A stretch of 64,000 nt of DNA. Source: Longibaculum muris. GTDB lineage: Bacteria > Bacillota_I > Bacilli_A > Erysipelotrichales > Coprobacillaceae. The notes beneath the pieces are model-generated. The model was given only the letters and a program-made list of their open reading frames with translations. It had not been told where the DNA came from and did no database searches. The stretch spans positions 1 to 64,000 of the forward strand of contig NZ_SMCQ01000012.1 of the NCBI RefSeq assembly GCF_004343035.1, in the 5' to 3' direction. Shown in pieces: positions 36,830 to 54,097 of this stretch; within the stretch, counting starts at the first letter, position 1, and every line of letters begins with the position of its first letter. Both the position numbers and the translations under genes were made by a program.

Positions 36830-37924
36830 ATGAGTAAAGTTGATATTATATCTGGTTTTTTAGGTGCTGGAAAAACAACACTAATTAAAAAATTAATTAA
36901 AGAAAGTTTAGGAAATGAAAAAGTTGTTTTAATTGAAAATGAATTTGGAGAAATTGGAATTGATGGTTCTTTTCTTAAAGATGCAGGTATTGAAATTACA
37001 GAAATGAACTCTGGATGTATTTGTTGTTCATTAGTCGGTGATTTTAGTCAAGCTTTAGAAAAAGTTGTGAATGATTATCATCCTGATCGTATTATCATTG
37101 AACCATCTGGAGTTGGAAAACTTTCTGATGTTATTAAGGCGGTACAAGATGTTCAAGATGAAGAATTACAATTAAATAGTTTTGTCACGGTTATTGATGC
37201 TAAGAAGTGTCGTATTTATACAACTAACTTTGGTGAATTCTTTAATAATCAAATTGAATATGCTTCTACAGTTATTTTAAGTCGTACTCAAGATGTTGAT
37301 CAAAATAAGATTCAACAAGCTATTGATATTATTAAAGGATTGAACACAAGTGCAAACATCATCACAACACCTTGGGATGAATTAACTGGTGAAACAATTA
37401 TGAACGCCATTGAAAATAAAGATTCTCTTAAAGATATTTTGTTAAAAGAAGCTGATATCTGTCCTGTTTGCGGTCATCATCATGAACATGACGAACATCA
37501 TCACCACGATGAACATTGTGAACACGAACACCACCATGACCATGAATGTAGTTGTGGACATGAACATCATGAACACCATCATCACGAACATGACCACGAA
37601 TGTGAATGTGGACATGACCATCACGATCATCACCATCATCATGCTGATGAAGTCTTTACAAGTATGGGTAAAGAAACAATCAAGACTTATACCAAAGAAC
37701 AATTAGAAGATATTTTAAAAACACTATCTTCTTCAAAAGAATTTGGAGATATCTTGCGTGCAAAAGGTATTTTACCTACACCTGATAAAACATGGCTGCA
37801 TTTTGATTTAGTTCCTGGTGAATATGAAGTGCGTGTTGGTCCTGCTGACTATACTGGTCGTATTTGTGTGATTGGTAAAGATTTATTAGAAAATAAAATT
37901 TGTGAATTGTTTGGAGTTGAATAA
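36830..37924 (+). CDS. G3E (CobW/YciC-type) GTPase with large His-rich zinc-binding region
   Basis: A 364-aa metallochaperone-type GTPase. Walker A is GFLGAGKTT, the metal-binding CxCC motif is SGCICCSL, and Walker B-like IIIEPSG follows. A region of about 65 residues at 212-275 (DNA 37461-37645) consists almost wholly of His with Asp, Glu and Cys, starting CPVCGHHHE and including four CGH-type units. The C-terminal 85 residues are a CobW C-domain. It probably binds many zinc or similar ions and delivers metal to a client. First of a two-gene operon. Confidence 0.9.
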   Translation: MSKVDIISGFLGAGKTTLIKKLIKESLGNEKVVLIENEFGEIGIDGSFLKDAGIEITEMNSGCICCSLVGDFSQALEKVVNDYHPDRIIIEPSGVGKLSDVIKAVQDVQDEELQLNSFVTVIDAKKCRIYTTNFGEFFNNQIEYASTVILSRTQDVDQNKIQQAIDIIKGLNTSANIITTPWDELTGETIMNAIENKDSLKDILLKEADICPVCGHHHEHDEHHHHDEHCEHEHHHDHECSCGHEHHEHHHHEHDHECECGHDHHDHHHHHADEVFTSMGKETIKTYTKEQLEDILKTLSSSKEFGDILRAKGILPTPDKTWLHFDLVPGEYEVRVGPADYTGRICVIGKDLLENKICELFGVE

Positions 37925-38865
37925 TGAAAACACGTATCTATTTATTTACTGGCTTTTTAGACAGTGGAAAAACATCATTTATCAATGATACAATCACAAC
38001 CACAGATTTTTGTGAAGGTGAAAAGTCTTTATTGATTGTCAGTGAGCAAGGTGAAGTTGAATATAATCAAGAAGAAATCGAAGCATGTAACTGTGATCTT
38101 GTTTATGTGAATAGTGAAGATGAATGGACATATGAATTCTTTGAAGAATTAAAAAACAAATACAATCCAACTCAAGTTTTAGTAGAACTCAATGGAATGT
38201 TTAATGTCAATCGTTTCTTAGCATGTAGTAAACCTGAAGGATGGGAAGTTGTTCAAGTTTTAACAACCATTAATGCACAAACATTTGGATTATATATTCA
38301 AAATATGCGTTCATTACTTTATCAACATGTTGTTCATACGGATTTATTAATATTTAATCGTATTGATGAAACTGTTAAAAAATCATTTTTAAGAAATAAT
38401 ATCAAAGCGATTAATTCAACTTGTCAAATCATCTATGAAAAAGCTGATGGAACCGTCAATACTATGGATGATGATGAATTACCATTTGATATTTCTAGTG
38501 ATGAATTAAATATTTTAGATCATGATTTTGGACTTTTCTGTATGGATGCTTTAGATCATCCAGATAAATATGCAGGGAAAACGGTGACTTTAAAAGGAAA
38601 ATTTATTGGTCGTGATAAACAGTTAGTTGATGGTTTTGTGATTGGACGTTTGGCTATGGTTTGTTGTGAAGAAGATACCTCTTTAATTGGTATGGTTTGT
38701 GAACACCCAGCAGCAAAACAGTTAATTCCAAATGAATGGATTCAAGTGAAAGGAAAAATAGAACTTGATTATGATCCTGATATTGGTGGAGAAGTTTGTA
38801 TATTAAAAGTGGAAGACTTAAAAGTCGTTCCACCTTTAGAAAATGAATATGTGACATTTGATTAG
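37924..38865 (+). CDS. CobW-like GTPase fused to a YcgQ/DUF1980-like domain
   Basis: A 313-aa protein. The N-terminal 180 residues resemble a G3E GTPase (Walker A TGFLDSGKTSF; VELNGMF at the Walker B position) but the CxCC motif is replaced by ACNCDLVYV. The C-terminal 110 residues (GKTVTLKGKFIGRD, FVIGRLAMVCCEED, GMVCEHP, WIQVKGKIE) look like the OB-type domain at the end of YcgQ/TIGR03943 proteins, which are tied to zinc-responsive operons in Bacillus. Its ATG overlaps the stop codon of the first GTPase. Confidence 0.7.
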   Translation: MKTRIYLFTGFLDSGKTSFINDTITTTDFCEGEKSLLIVSEQGEVEYNQEEIEACNCDLVYVNSEDEWTYEFFEELKNKYNPTQVLVELNGMFNVNRFLACSKPEGWEVVQVLTTINAQTFGLYIQNMRSLLYQHVVHTDLLIFNRIDETVKKSFLRNNIKAINSTCQIIYEKADGTVNTMDDDELPFDISSDELNILDHDFGLFCMDALDHPDKYAGKTVTLKGKFIGRDKQLVDGFVIGRLAMVCCEEDTSLIGMVCEHPAAKQLIPNEWIQVKGKIELDYDPDIGGEVCILKVEDLKVVPPLENEYVTFD

Positions 38866-38884: not shown

Positions 38885-40051
38885 TTATTGTTCATACCTT
38901 TTTCTTATCACATATTGATAAATGATATAAATAAAGCATAATATAACAAATAAACAAAGATATGCCACCTTTAATCCAAACATATCTCCAATCAATCCCA
39001 TCAATGGAAAATAAACAATCATAACAATACTAAATCCCATTGACATAAGAGAAAGAAGGGTTGCTCGCATCTGGCTTTCTACTTTCTCATTTAAGAAAGT
39101 TGTTATAGCAATATATAAGATTGTCTCAAAAAAAGCCATAACACATATTGATAAGATAGAAAGTGGATAAAATGGTAAACCTATAGATGAAATCACAATT
39201 CCAATTGGTAATACCAACAATAATCTCTTTTGTGAATATCTTTTCATAATTTTATAAGTGATTACTCCCGCTATAATACCTGTTATATTTTCTAATGAAA
39301 GAAATATAGATATTGCTGAAATACTGACACCTAATTCTTTCCAATAATTTGTTAAATAGTAATAAGCTGTTGTTAGTGATGCTGAAAATAAGGCGGTACT
39401 TAATATCAAATAAAAGATTTGATGATCTTGTTTGATTAATTCACAACTCATAACAACTTGTTGTTTCATATCATGAAGGATATTGGTTTTGATATATCCT
39501 TTATTTTTAATTTCTTTCATCTGTAATAAAGCAAATATTGATAATATGATGATTAGGATAGATAATCCATAAGTCAATTGATAACTCAATCCTGCAATAA
39601 TACCACCAATAGTCGTCGATAACAACATCGCAACTTGAATAACCACTTCCCTTTTTCCTTGAATTTTAGCAAATTCATCTTGTTCATTATATTCAAGCAA
39701 CAAATCATAAACATAAGCACTATCAGTTCCAGATTCTAAGTTATATGACAAAGCTTGTAAAATAAACGATAAATAAATCATCCATTCTTGTCTTGCAAAA
39801 ATAAGTAAGATAATTGAAACAATCTCAACCATTCTTCCTAATAATCGACTTAAACGTCTCCCATATAAATCACTAATAATTCCTGTTGGCATTTCTCCAA
39901 GCATCGAAGTGATATGAAAGACACTTTCACAAATTCCAACATCAACCAACGAAAAACCTTTGATTACAAGAAATGTTGGCCAAAGTAAAGATGTTAATTT
40001 AAAGTTCAATAAAAACTCAAATATATAATTCAAATACAAATTCTTTTTCAT
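38885..40051 (-). CDS. MFS-family exporter
   Basis: A 388-aa major facilitator protein with about 12 hydrophobic helices and the loop-2 motif GIISDLYGRRLSRLLGR between helices 2 and 3. Substrate is unknown, but drug efflux is likely because the gene is preceded by a leader peptide and attenuator typical of ribosome-sensed antibiotic resistance genes. The start is ATG 40051, 10 bases after AAGGGG; an in-frame extension upstream overlaps the terminator and is rejected. Confidence 0.82.
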   Translation of the reverse strand: MKKNLYLNYIFEFLLNFKLTSLLWPTFLVIKGFSLVDVGICESVFHITSMLGEMPTGIISDLYGRRLSRLLGRMVEIVSIILLIFARQEWMIYLSFILQALSYNLESGTDSAYVYDLLLEYNEQDEFAKIQGKREVVIQVAMLLSTTIGGIIAGLSYQLTYGLSILIIILSIFALLQMKEIKNKGYIKTNILHDMKQQVVMSCELIKQDHQIFYLILSTALFSASLTTAYYYLTNYWKELGVSISAISIFLSLENITGIIAGVITYKIMKRYSQKRLLLVLPIGIVISSIGLPFYPLSILSICVMAFFETILYIAITTFLNEKVESQMRATLLSLMSMGFSIVMIVYFPLMGLIGDMFGLKVAYLCLFVILCFIYIIYQYVIRKRYEQ

Positions 40052-40093
40052 TATTATTAATCCCCTTTTCTTTTGTTTTTGGGGAACAAAAAA

Positions 40094-40140
40094 AGATTCC
40101 ATACAAATGGAACCTTCTATTTCATCATAAACATGGTTCC
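40094..40140 (-). promoter_or_regulatory. Transcription attenuator upstream of the MFS gene
   Basis: Terminator: AGGTTCCAT (40115-40107) pairs with ATGGAATCT (40102-40094), 9 bp with one G-U, followed by seven T. Antiterminator: GGAACC (40140-40135) can pair with GGTTCC (40114-40109) in the terminator's first arm. A third segment, CATGGT inside the leader ORF (near 40206-40201), can pair with ACCATG (40137-40132) and free the terminator. This is a three-way switch linked to leader translation. Confidence 0.7.
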
Positions 40141-40141
40141 C

Positions 40142-40249
40142 CTATTTTGGGCGCACTCGTCCCTTGTTTAGAAAACCATCAAAAAATGTTATAGTGTGAC
40201 ACCATGCATCATGATATAAAATTGTATTTCTTTGTTGATTGATAAACAT
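40142..40249 (-). CDS. Leader peptide of the MFS attenuator (35 aa)
   Basis: A 35-codon ORF with a near-perfect ribosome site (GGGAGGTG, 6 bases before ATG 40249). It begins MFINQQRNT and ends NKGRVRPK, followed by TAG two bases before the antiterminator arm. The strong site, position and overlap with pairing elements argue that its translation senses ribosome stalling. The basic C-terminal RVRPK run may matter for stalling. The likely inducer is a ribosome-targeting antibiotic, by inference. Confidence 0.7.
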   Translation of the reverse strand: MFINQQRNTILYHDAWCHTITFFDGFLNKGRVRPK

Positions 40250-40303
40250 GTGTCCCACCTCCCTATGTTTATAATACTACCATTGATAAAGTCTTGTGTA
40301 AAG

Positions 40304-40927
40304 TTATTTATCATTTTTAAATATATATTTTCTTATCAAGACAAAGATAATAAAACTCAAAAGCAATGAAAGAAAAGTTGGTAAATAAAACAACAAAATA
40401 CTGCTCATACTTCCATCAATCAATTGATGAAGTTTGTTATAAATCAATTGATAAGTCATTGTATATTCACTCATATAAAAAATTGGTATAAAACATAATA
40501 ACCATATATTTATACTAAAGAATTTTCTTTGATACTTTTGTTGATGTGTAGGTAAAGCAAATATTTCAAAGACAATTATACCTATAATTTGAATCAACAT
40601 CCCTACTAATAAACAAATCGAATTTTGATAATGTTTCCACAACATATATGCACTTAACAATCCTATAAAAACAATGCATGTAGAAATAACAATCATTAAA
40701 TCTATACGATTTTCCTTTGTATCATTTTCAATAGAATCTTTTAATAAATAATCTGTACTCACATGATAAATTTCACTTAACGCTAATATATTTGAAATAT
40801 CAGGAACACTTTCATTTAACTCCCATTTAGAAACTGATTGTCTTGAAACATTGAGTTGATCAGCTAATTCTTGTTGAGACAATCCACTTTGTTTTCTTAA
40901 CTTTAATAATTTTTCACTTAAATTCAT
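40304..40927 (-). CDS. XRE-family regulator with membrane domain
   Basis: A 207-aa protein. Residues 1-60 are a Cro/C1-type HTH (LRKQSGLSQQELADQLNVSRQSVSKWE), followed by a STDYLLKD segment. The rest holds four hydrophobic helices. HTH-plus-membrane proteins of this type are frequent in gut Firmicutes; role unknown. Start at ATG 40927 after AAGGAGG. Transcribed towards the MFS leader, but that has its own promoter. Confidence 0.8.
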   Translation of the reverse strand: MNLSEKLLKLRKQSGLSQQELADQLNVSRQSVSKWELNESVPDISNILALSEIYHVSTDYLLKDSIENDTKENRIDLMIVISTCIVFIGLLSAYMLWKHYQNSICLLVGMLIQIIGIIVFEIFALPTHQQKYQRKFFSINIWLLCFIPIFYMSEYTMTYQLIYNKLHQLIDGSMSSILLFYLPTFLSLLLSFIIFVLIRKYIFKNDK

Positions 40928-40946
40928 AACCCTACCTCCTTGCATC

Positions 40947-40955
40947 ATTATACCA
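40947..40955 (-). promoter_or_regulatory. Extended -10 of the XRE gene
   Basis: TGG-TATAAT on the minus strand, six bases before the AAGGAGG site, so the leader is very short. No good -35 is seen at 17 bp. Confidence 0.5.
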
Positions 40956-41063
40956 AAACCCATGATGGCTTGCTACATAGTCAACTTGGCAATGGCGCCC
41001 GTAAGAGTTGCAACTATAAAAAGAAGTCTATCAAACAATATTTTATTTTCTTTTTGCAAATTA
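40956..41063. other. GC-richer intergenic stretch of unknown role
   Basis: About 60 bases here (40965-41020) are clearly less A/T-rich than the surroundings and contain the palindromes AGTTGCAACT and GGCGCC. No ORF, terminator or known RNA motif is recognised. It is upstream of both the XRE gene and the antitoxin RNA promoter. Confidence 0.3.
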
Positions 41064-41092
41064 TTGACATTTATTATAAAACTATTTATAAT
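41064..41092 (+). promoter_or_regulatory. Promoter of the antitoxin RNA
   Basis: Perfect consensus: TTGACA, 17 bp, TATAAT. There is no ORF with a ribosome site downstream before the terminator at 41144, so it drives a small RNA. Confidence 0.85.
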
Positions 41093-41098
41093 GAGGAT

Positions 41099-41183
41099 GT
41101 AAAAGGTATTACCGATAGACGGTGTCCTAAGATTTAGGTGTTTAAAATAACCGCAATCCTTGGCTAGGGGCGGTTATTTTTTT
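41099..41183 (+). ncRNA. Candidate type I antitoxin RNA
   Basis: A predicted RNA of about 85 bases, from the consensus promoter to the T run at 41177-41183. It contains a small hairpin (CCTAA-GAT-TTAGG) and the terminator hairpin. Its 3' part is antisense to the last codons and 3' end of the toxin mRNA. Its 5' GGTATTACC...GGTGTCCT block repeats in inverted orientation at the 5' end of the toxin transcript. Confidence 0.65.
41144..41180. terminator. Shared bidirectional terminator of toxin and antitoxin RNAs
   Basis: AAAATAACCGC and GCGGTTATTTT form an 11-bp stem with a 15-base loop holding an inner CCT/AGG pairing. T runs at both ends allow termination of both convergent RNAs, so they overlap by the whole hairpin. 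Confidence 0.85.
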
Positions 41184-41266
41184 GACTTCTTGATAATCTC
41201 AAGAAATAATACAATGATAATATTAAGAATCATTAACATAATCGTTAAGGTTTCAAAATCACTCAT
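41174..41266 (-). CDS. Putative holin-like type I toxin (30 aa)
   Basis: A 30-codon ORF, ATG at 41266 preceded by GGGAGGTG (a near-perfect ribosome site). The peptide starts MSDFETLTIMLMILNIII, a single membrane helix, and ends in a basic KKSKK tail. This is the form of the holin-like toxins found in type I toxin-antitoxin loci of Firmicutes. The stop codon lies in the terminator hairpin shared with the antisense RNA. Confidence 0.75.
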   Translation of the reverse strand: MSDFETLTIMLMILNIIIVLFLEIIKKSKK

Positions 41267-41412
41267 TATATCACCTCCCGTTTTTATATTTCTTCTTAAG
41301 AAGATATCTATTGAAACGAGATGTCTCAGTCCCTCGATCATACTGACTCAGGACACCGCCTACCGTTATGGTAATACCATAGTTATTATATCATAAAATT
41401 AGCTTTAAGCAA
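41267..41412 (-). promoter_or_regulatory. Toxin promoter and structured 5' leader
   Basis: Extended -10 TGA-TATAAT (TATAAT at 41390-41385) with TTGCTT (41412-41407) at 16 bp. The leader of about 110 bases starts with GGTATTACC (41378-41370), then GGCGGTGTCCTGAG (41360-41347), and can fold through TCAGT/ACTGA pairings. Long leaders that delay translation are usual for type I toxins. Confidence 0.65.
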
Positions 41413-53989: not shown

Positions 53990-54000
53990 CACAAAATCTA

Positions 54001-54086
54001 AGTTCCTATCCCTACGTTGGCATTACCCAAATCAGGTGCGGTCGAAGTTCACAACTTCCTCTCAGCCTATATATAAGCTCCCGTTC
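54001..54086 (-). ncRNA. TPP riboswitch (THI box)
   Basis: Minus-strand motifs in the right order: GGGAGC, CTGAGAGGAAG, GACCGCACCTGATTTGGGTA with the conserved CCTGATTTGGGTAATGCC core, and GTAGGGA. This is the conserved THI element. It controls the following thiM-thiE-HAD-thiD operon in cis. Confidence 0.95.
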
Positions 54087-54097
54087 TTGATATATTT

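Follow-up and report, generated by a model that had tools for sequence, protein, structure and literature searches.

The major facilitator superfamily (MFS) gene at 38885 to 40051 on the minus strand of the Longibaculum muris window (the whole 64-kb stretch of DNA that was analyzed) is probably controlled by a two-layer, ribosome-mediated attenuator acting on both transcription and translation, a reading to which we assign a probability of roughly 80%. Our computations show that the parts of this switch are conserved, that its alternative helices covary, and that one block of the leader, block 2, is conserved independently of its reading frame. The original prediction of a leader-peptide attenuator for this gene is well supported by orthologues that keep the leader, by homologous leaders before ABC-F genes, and by the covariation of the alternative helices. 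That prediction included neither the translational layer, nor the two conserved leader blocks, nor the homologous leaders elsewhere.

Locus architecture and leader family

All features of the locus lie on the minus strand. A consensus scan places a candidate leader promoter (TTTACA-17-TAGTAT; 9/12) at 40274 to 40302, a quality at which chance matches are common. The 35-codon leader ORF MFINQQRNTILYHDAWCHTITFFDGFLNKGRVRPK (40142 to 40249) has homologues retrieved by the leader HMM, and its SD sequence, AGGGAGGTGG, lies at 40255 to 40264; both the ORF and its strong SD were found where they had been predicted. Block 1, the proposed arrest peptide (codons 13 to 23, HDAWCHTITFF; 40181 to 40213), was delimited by in-frame conservation and an occlusion scan. 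It is followed by strand 1′ (GAUGGUUUUCU; 40170 to 40180), assigned by folding and partner swap with R2 (n = 14) as the 5′ arm of the anti-antiterminator hairpin, by block 2 (GGGACGAGTGCGCCC; 40149 to 40163), and by strand R2 (GGGGAACCAUG; 40132 to 40142), located at or just after the leader stop codon and able to pair with 1′, region 3, or arm3. Region 3 (GGTTCC; 40109 to 40114), the antiterminator partner of the GGAACC in R2 (40140 to 40135), lies in the 5′ arm of an intrinsic terminator with a 12-bp stem, a 4-nt loop, and seven T (40088 to 40118). The terminator and both of these hexamers sit where the original prediction had put them. Arm3 (GTTCCCC; 40081 to 40087), 3′ of the T run, can pair with either the SD of the MFS gene (off) or the GGGGAAC of R2 (on), as assigned by partner swap. 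The ribosome-binding site region of the gene, AAAAGGGGATT, is at 40059 to 40069, and the best placement of the gene start is 40051. The 240-nt leader folds more stably than 199 of 200 shuffled sequences (z = -2.9).

The 388-amino-acid product belongs to the MFS family (Pfam MFS_1, 2.4e-34), as had been predicted, whereas the accompanying label of exporter derives from the family only: the match to TIGR00900, “H+ Antiporter protein,” scores 49.6 bits, which is below the cut-off. We infer that the protein exports drugs. The gene directly upstream of the leader (40304 to 40963, minus strand) encodes an XRE-type HTH protein whose C-terminal half is hydrophobic, and a comparable hydrophobic C-terminal end is found upstream of the leader in both MFS-type relatives.

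Within its family, only two further genomes encode a close orthologue of the MFS protein, one with 78% identity and the other, Candidatus Stoquefichus massiliensis AP9, with 73%. The leader is present at both, as MYTDLQYHIVQFHDAWRRTETSNFGFSNKGRVRPK and MYIQILDHTIQLHDAWRRTETSKLGFSDKGRVRPK; a 39%-identical homologue, L004, is without it. A profile of the three MFS leaders retrieved a fourth, MGYCIDKKTCEHNTIKTFDAFCRTITFTTLSINAGQVRPN, which precedes an ABC-F gene from a different family within the order, and a profile that included the fourth retrieved more from the 316 genomes of the order, again before ABC-F genes, with E values down to 1e-13. The leader HMM matches two MFS and seven ABC-F loci (E values of 5e-23 to 2e-10). 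Peptide queries and a scan for the DNA block GGGACRAGTGCGYC both led to a second ABC-F group of four loci, in which the leader of L075 was reached by the scan alone. In total, the family comprises 14 leaders in 14 genomes, 3 before MFS genes and 11 before ABC-F genes. Each of the 14 loci conserves a putative leader ORF (35 to 43 codons) with a predicted SD upstream of the gene, strong in the homologous leaders as well, and each has an intrinsic terminator at the equivalent position between leader ORF and gene. It is extremely improbable that the site is a plain intergenic terminator beside a chance short ORF, free of leader-peptide control: common as terminator-like sites and 35-codon ORFs are in AT-rich DNA, here 14 loci, one per genome, share a conserved leader, a fixed architecture, and covarying alternative helices.

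A leader sequence model run against a phylum sample of 392 genomes gave four strong matches, all in Erysipelotrichales, after which the score dropped from 72 to 21 bits. Weak matches to the leader or model in other families (L023, L024, L026, L041 to L043, L052, L054 to L056, L060, L061, L084 to L086, L088, and L094) lie in unrelated DNA and were set down to chance, and the pattern matches L063, L069, L074, L076, and L077 were judged likewise. Rfam gave no match at the gathering score in the leader or its homologues and no leader family at an E value of ≤1. No related locus was confirmed among genome contigs searched with the MFS protein or among viral contigs searched with the leader alignment, and searches of plasmids and phages with the leader DNA or peptide gave chance matches or none. 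The leader peptide appears in no paper of the searched library. As far as these searches show, the leader family is undescribed and its class of mechanism is known.

Two of the ABC-F proteins could be typed near full length. Their best NCBIfam is “ribosomal protection-like ABC-F,” with scores of 348 and 333 bits on partial sequences against a cut-off of 380, and neither protein reached the cut-off of any named resistance family.

Alternative helices of the leader RNA

To evaluate coevolution of the predicted helices, we set the energy of each strand's duplex with its own partner against the energies of its duplexes with partners from the other leaders (n = 14). Own pairing was far better than swapped pairing for 1′ with R2 (the anti-antiterminator; -13.9 versus -8.4 kcal/mol), R2 with arm3 (the read-through helix; -14.8 versus -7.9 kcal/mol), arm3 with SD (the hairpin hiding the SD of the gene; -11.0 versus -7.9 kcal/mol), and the pre-terminator with the terminator strand (the antiterminator; -11.8 versus -8.2 kcal/mol), each at P < 0.001, a value that somewhat overstates independence because the leader sequences are related. 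A set of 10 representatives agrees, with a permutation P of < 0.001 for all four helices. These differences indicate that the four alternative helices have coevolved. The swap thus recovers mutually exclusive anti-antiterminator and antiterminator helices (P < 0.001), and the coevolution of arm3 with SD and of R2 with arm3 reveals both an SD-hiding hairpin and a leader strand that opens it in the read-through RNA. The sister leaders L078 and L079 carry a compensatory A-U to G-C change in R2:arm3.

The corresponding pairings in the window are AUGGUUUUC with GGGGAACCAU, GGAACC with GGUUCC, GGGGAAC with GUUCCCC, and UUCCCC with the SD GGGGA. The first of these amends the original prediction, which had named CATGGT (40206 to 40201) with ACCATG (40137 to 40132). 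Both of those strands exist and their pairing competes in the window, but none of the 11 ABC-F leaders has an equivalent, and the pairing that is both predicted and conserved is that of AUGGUUUUC, in codons 24 to 28.

Individual antiterminator helices are no stronger than those of shuffled sequences in several leaders. Block 1 with block 2 gained no own-partner advantage in the swap, and the pair shows no covariation because both blocks are invariant; a pseudoknot between them is possible. RNAalifold, run on a MAFFT alignment, returned only block 1:block 2 pairs, with no two-sided covariation, and it misses the other helices because the alignment is out of structural register for them. Equilibrium folding up to the T run does not make the switch visible, since the terminator is favored in most leaders even with a stalled ribosome, and the decision must therefore fall during transcription, kinetically, as in known attenuators. 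When the helices are scored at the decision point instead, the switch becomes visible.

Under the mechanism that we propose, a ribosome in drug-free cells would complete the leader ORF, and 1′ would pair with R2 after the stop codon. With 1′:R2 formed, the terminator would fold and transcription would stop, while any RNA read through without drug would have the SD of the gene masked by the arm3:SD hairpin. A ribosome-targeting drug would, we infer, halt the ribosome where the block 1 motif DA[FW]xRTxT ends, and the halted ribosome would cover 1′. R2 would then be free to pair with the 5′ arm of the terminator, giving antitermination, and would afterwards pair with arm3 and release the SD of the gene. 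Block 2, located 35 to 37 nt 3′ of the block 1 GTC, would act as an RNA polymerase (RNAP) pause at which the polymerase waits for the leading ribosome.

Two conserved blocks and the proposed stall site

The DNA of block 2, GGGACRAGTGCGYC, is present in all 14 leaders, one of them with a single change. It reads G-[RQ]-V-R in 10 leaders, GTSAS in 3, and RDECV in 1, because the spacer from the GTC of block 1 to the GGG is 37, 35, or 36 nt long. Where block 2 is read as G-[RQ]-V-R, its GGA and GTG codons show no silent variation apart from one GTC, and the one recurrent difference, CGA or CAA, alters the amino acid, placing Q for R in 4 of the 10. This frame-independent conservation, together with the fixed silent positions, speaks for a function of block 2 at the RNA or DNA level. 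If silent recoding of block 2 (GGGACGAGTGCG) were to alter regulation, it would support such a role. The near-identical leaders of L045 and L047, whose genomes are related, form a natural variant pair for the RVR motif: in block 2, one has CGA and the other CAA (GRVRPI versus GQVRPI).

The original prediction singled out the C-terminal NKGRVRPK, but a role of this stretch as the drug sensor is not supported: it is kept as DNA or RNA and not as peptide. The GRVRPK end is probably not the sensor, because its DNA is kept in 14 leaders but four of them use other frames. The same frame-shifted homologues make it rather unlikely that the leader senses macrolides or ketolides in the manner of mef(A)/erm(D), with the drug-bound ribosome arrested within R-V-R-P-K, a +X+ motif close to the C-terminal end of the leader peptide. 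RVR and RPK do fit the Arg/Lys-X-Arg/Lys motif reported for MefAL and ErmDL (PMC10314930; MTASMRLR, PMC4335068), the three MFS leaders share GRVRPK unchanged, and a stall at V32 would still free part of the antiterminator. However, with the stretch out of frame in four leaders and Q for R in 4 of the 10 in-frame ones, RVR is not kept as a peptide, its silent positions vary no more than the rest, and a stall past V32 would cover R2 and weaken the antiterminator. A conserved Arg/Lys-X-Arg/Lys at the arrest site, of the MefAL/ErmDL type, is found in only part of the family.

Block 1 differs from block 2 in its frame. Its motif, DA[FW]xRTxT (D14 to T21 in the window), is in frame in 14 of 14 leaders, with single substitutions in some, and the ABC-F leaders share further conserved residues (RTITF). 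Silent variation in the later codons of block 1 points to selection on the peptide, while GCTTTTTGTCGTAC hardly varies in the ABC-F leaders; both the peptide and the nucleotide level may count here. We assessed the stall position with an occlusion scan, masking a 31-nt ribosome footprint in an RNA that ends before the 3′ arm of the terminator. With the P site at the second T of RTxT or at neighboring codons, the anti-antiterminator pairs are lost in almost all leaders and antiterminator pairs increase in most. In the window, stalls at T19 through G30 leave a strong antiterminator, those at R31 and V32 a less strong one, and those from R33 onward, where the ribosome covers R2, a weak one. Stalling where block 1 ends thus fits the whole family, while stalling at RVR would fit only the window and some other leaders.

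The RNA logic requires merely a halted ribosome, and an amino-acid or general translation-stress attenuator, in which any slow ribosome at block 1 (for example, through a shortage of charged tRNA) triggers the gene, would also satisfy it. The repeated Thr codons of block 1 are consistent with this alternative, and the E. coli topAI uORF is reported to sense several classes of ribosome-targeting drug (PMC12121999). We nevertheless consider it unlikely, as block 1 has no run of a single amino acid, its motif is mixed and strongly conserved, and the targets are ribosomal-protection-like ABC-F and MFS genes rather than biosynthesis genes.

The published consensus for elemental RNAP pauses includes, among other positions, G-11, T-3, and G-2. 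Block 2 fits the elemental-pause consensus of G-10, Y-1, and G+1 (PMC12288461), and from this match, noticed post hoc, we hypothesize that it is an RNAP pause, with a predicted paused 3′ end at 40153. In 13 of the 14 leaders, block 2 is the sole site with the pattern GGn6TGYG, which has 11 occurrences in the 64-kb window when both strands are counted; the leader of L044 has only the minimal G-10 Y-1 G+1 version. The predicted 3′ end of the paused RNA lies 36 nt from the T21 codon, a distance that would roughly correspond to the front of the ribosome plus the exit channel of the polymerase.

We tentatively suggest, as a possibility that goes beyond the attenuator itself, that DA[FW]xRTxT represents a new family of drug-dependent arrest peptides, coupled to an RNAP pause at a fixed distance that is selected regardless of frame, and exchangeable between genes for two unrelated strategies of resistance, MFS efflux and ABC-F ribosome protection. 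If right, gut Erysipelotrichales would possess an undescribed sensor family for ribosome-targeting antibiotics, linking genes for an MFS pump and for several ABC-F proteins, candidates for resistance that name-based annotation leaves unflagged. The 14 natural variants could then serve to measure the spacing between arrest site and polymerase pause, and ribosome-polymerase timing in resistance-gene attenuators would become directly testable.

Known attenuators and other features of the window

Three features set the present family apart from the attenuators of vmlR and tlrB: a long leader carrying a new conserved motif, the occurrence of this leader ahead of MFS as well as ABC-F genes, and a block conserved whatever its reading frame. 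The tlrB gene of B. subtilis encodes a 23S rRNA methyltransferase, a different kind of resistance gene. It combines a pause with transcription attenuation and translation attenuation (reviewed in PMC12288461), as is proposed for the window, and its pause is NusG dependent. The layout of the B. subtilis ABC-F gene vmlR, with the uORF MIN, has been established experimentally and resembles that of the window in its uORF within the anti-antiterminator, its terminator and antiterminator, and its SD-hiding hairpin opened by read-through pairing (PMC9226507), the two being likened by layout; RNAP pauses in the vmlR leader, as is hypothesized here for block 2. In contrast, the vmlR uORF has 3 codons and an initiation stall, compared with 35 to 43 codons and a conserved internal motif here, and its pause is of the NusG TTNTTT kind, whereas block 2 fits the elemental-pause consensus.

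The mef(E)/mef(A) leader (MTASMRLR; PMC4335068) similarly controls a macrolide-type MFS exporter gene by leader-peptide transcription attenuation, but its peptide has 8 codons and an RLR end, while the present leader is long and its RVR end is not a peptide feature shared by the whole family. Ribosome-mediated transcription attenuation also governs the ARE ABC-F gene msrD, whose leader differs in being a 6-codon peptide (MYLIFM) arrested at its stop codon (PMC10314930).

Elsewhere in the window, a sigma-70 promoter (TTGACA-17-TATAAT, 12/12) at 41064 to 41092 on the plus strand precedes a possible short terminated RNA. This RNA may be antisense to a small hydrophobic ORF at 41174 to 41341 on the minus strand that ends in MSDFETLTIMLMILNIIIVLFLEIIKKSKK and for which Pfam gives only a sub-threshold DUF2929 match, and the region from 41064 to 41341 looks like a type I toxin-antitoxin pair. 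Two adjacent ORFs at 36830 to 38865, the first with a long His-rich stretch, were named as CobW/G3E-type GTPases from their motifs only. A TPP riboswitch at 53992 to 54094 on the minus strand scores slightly over the Rfam gathering score.
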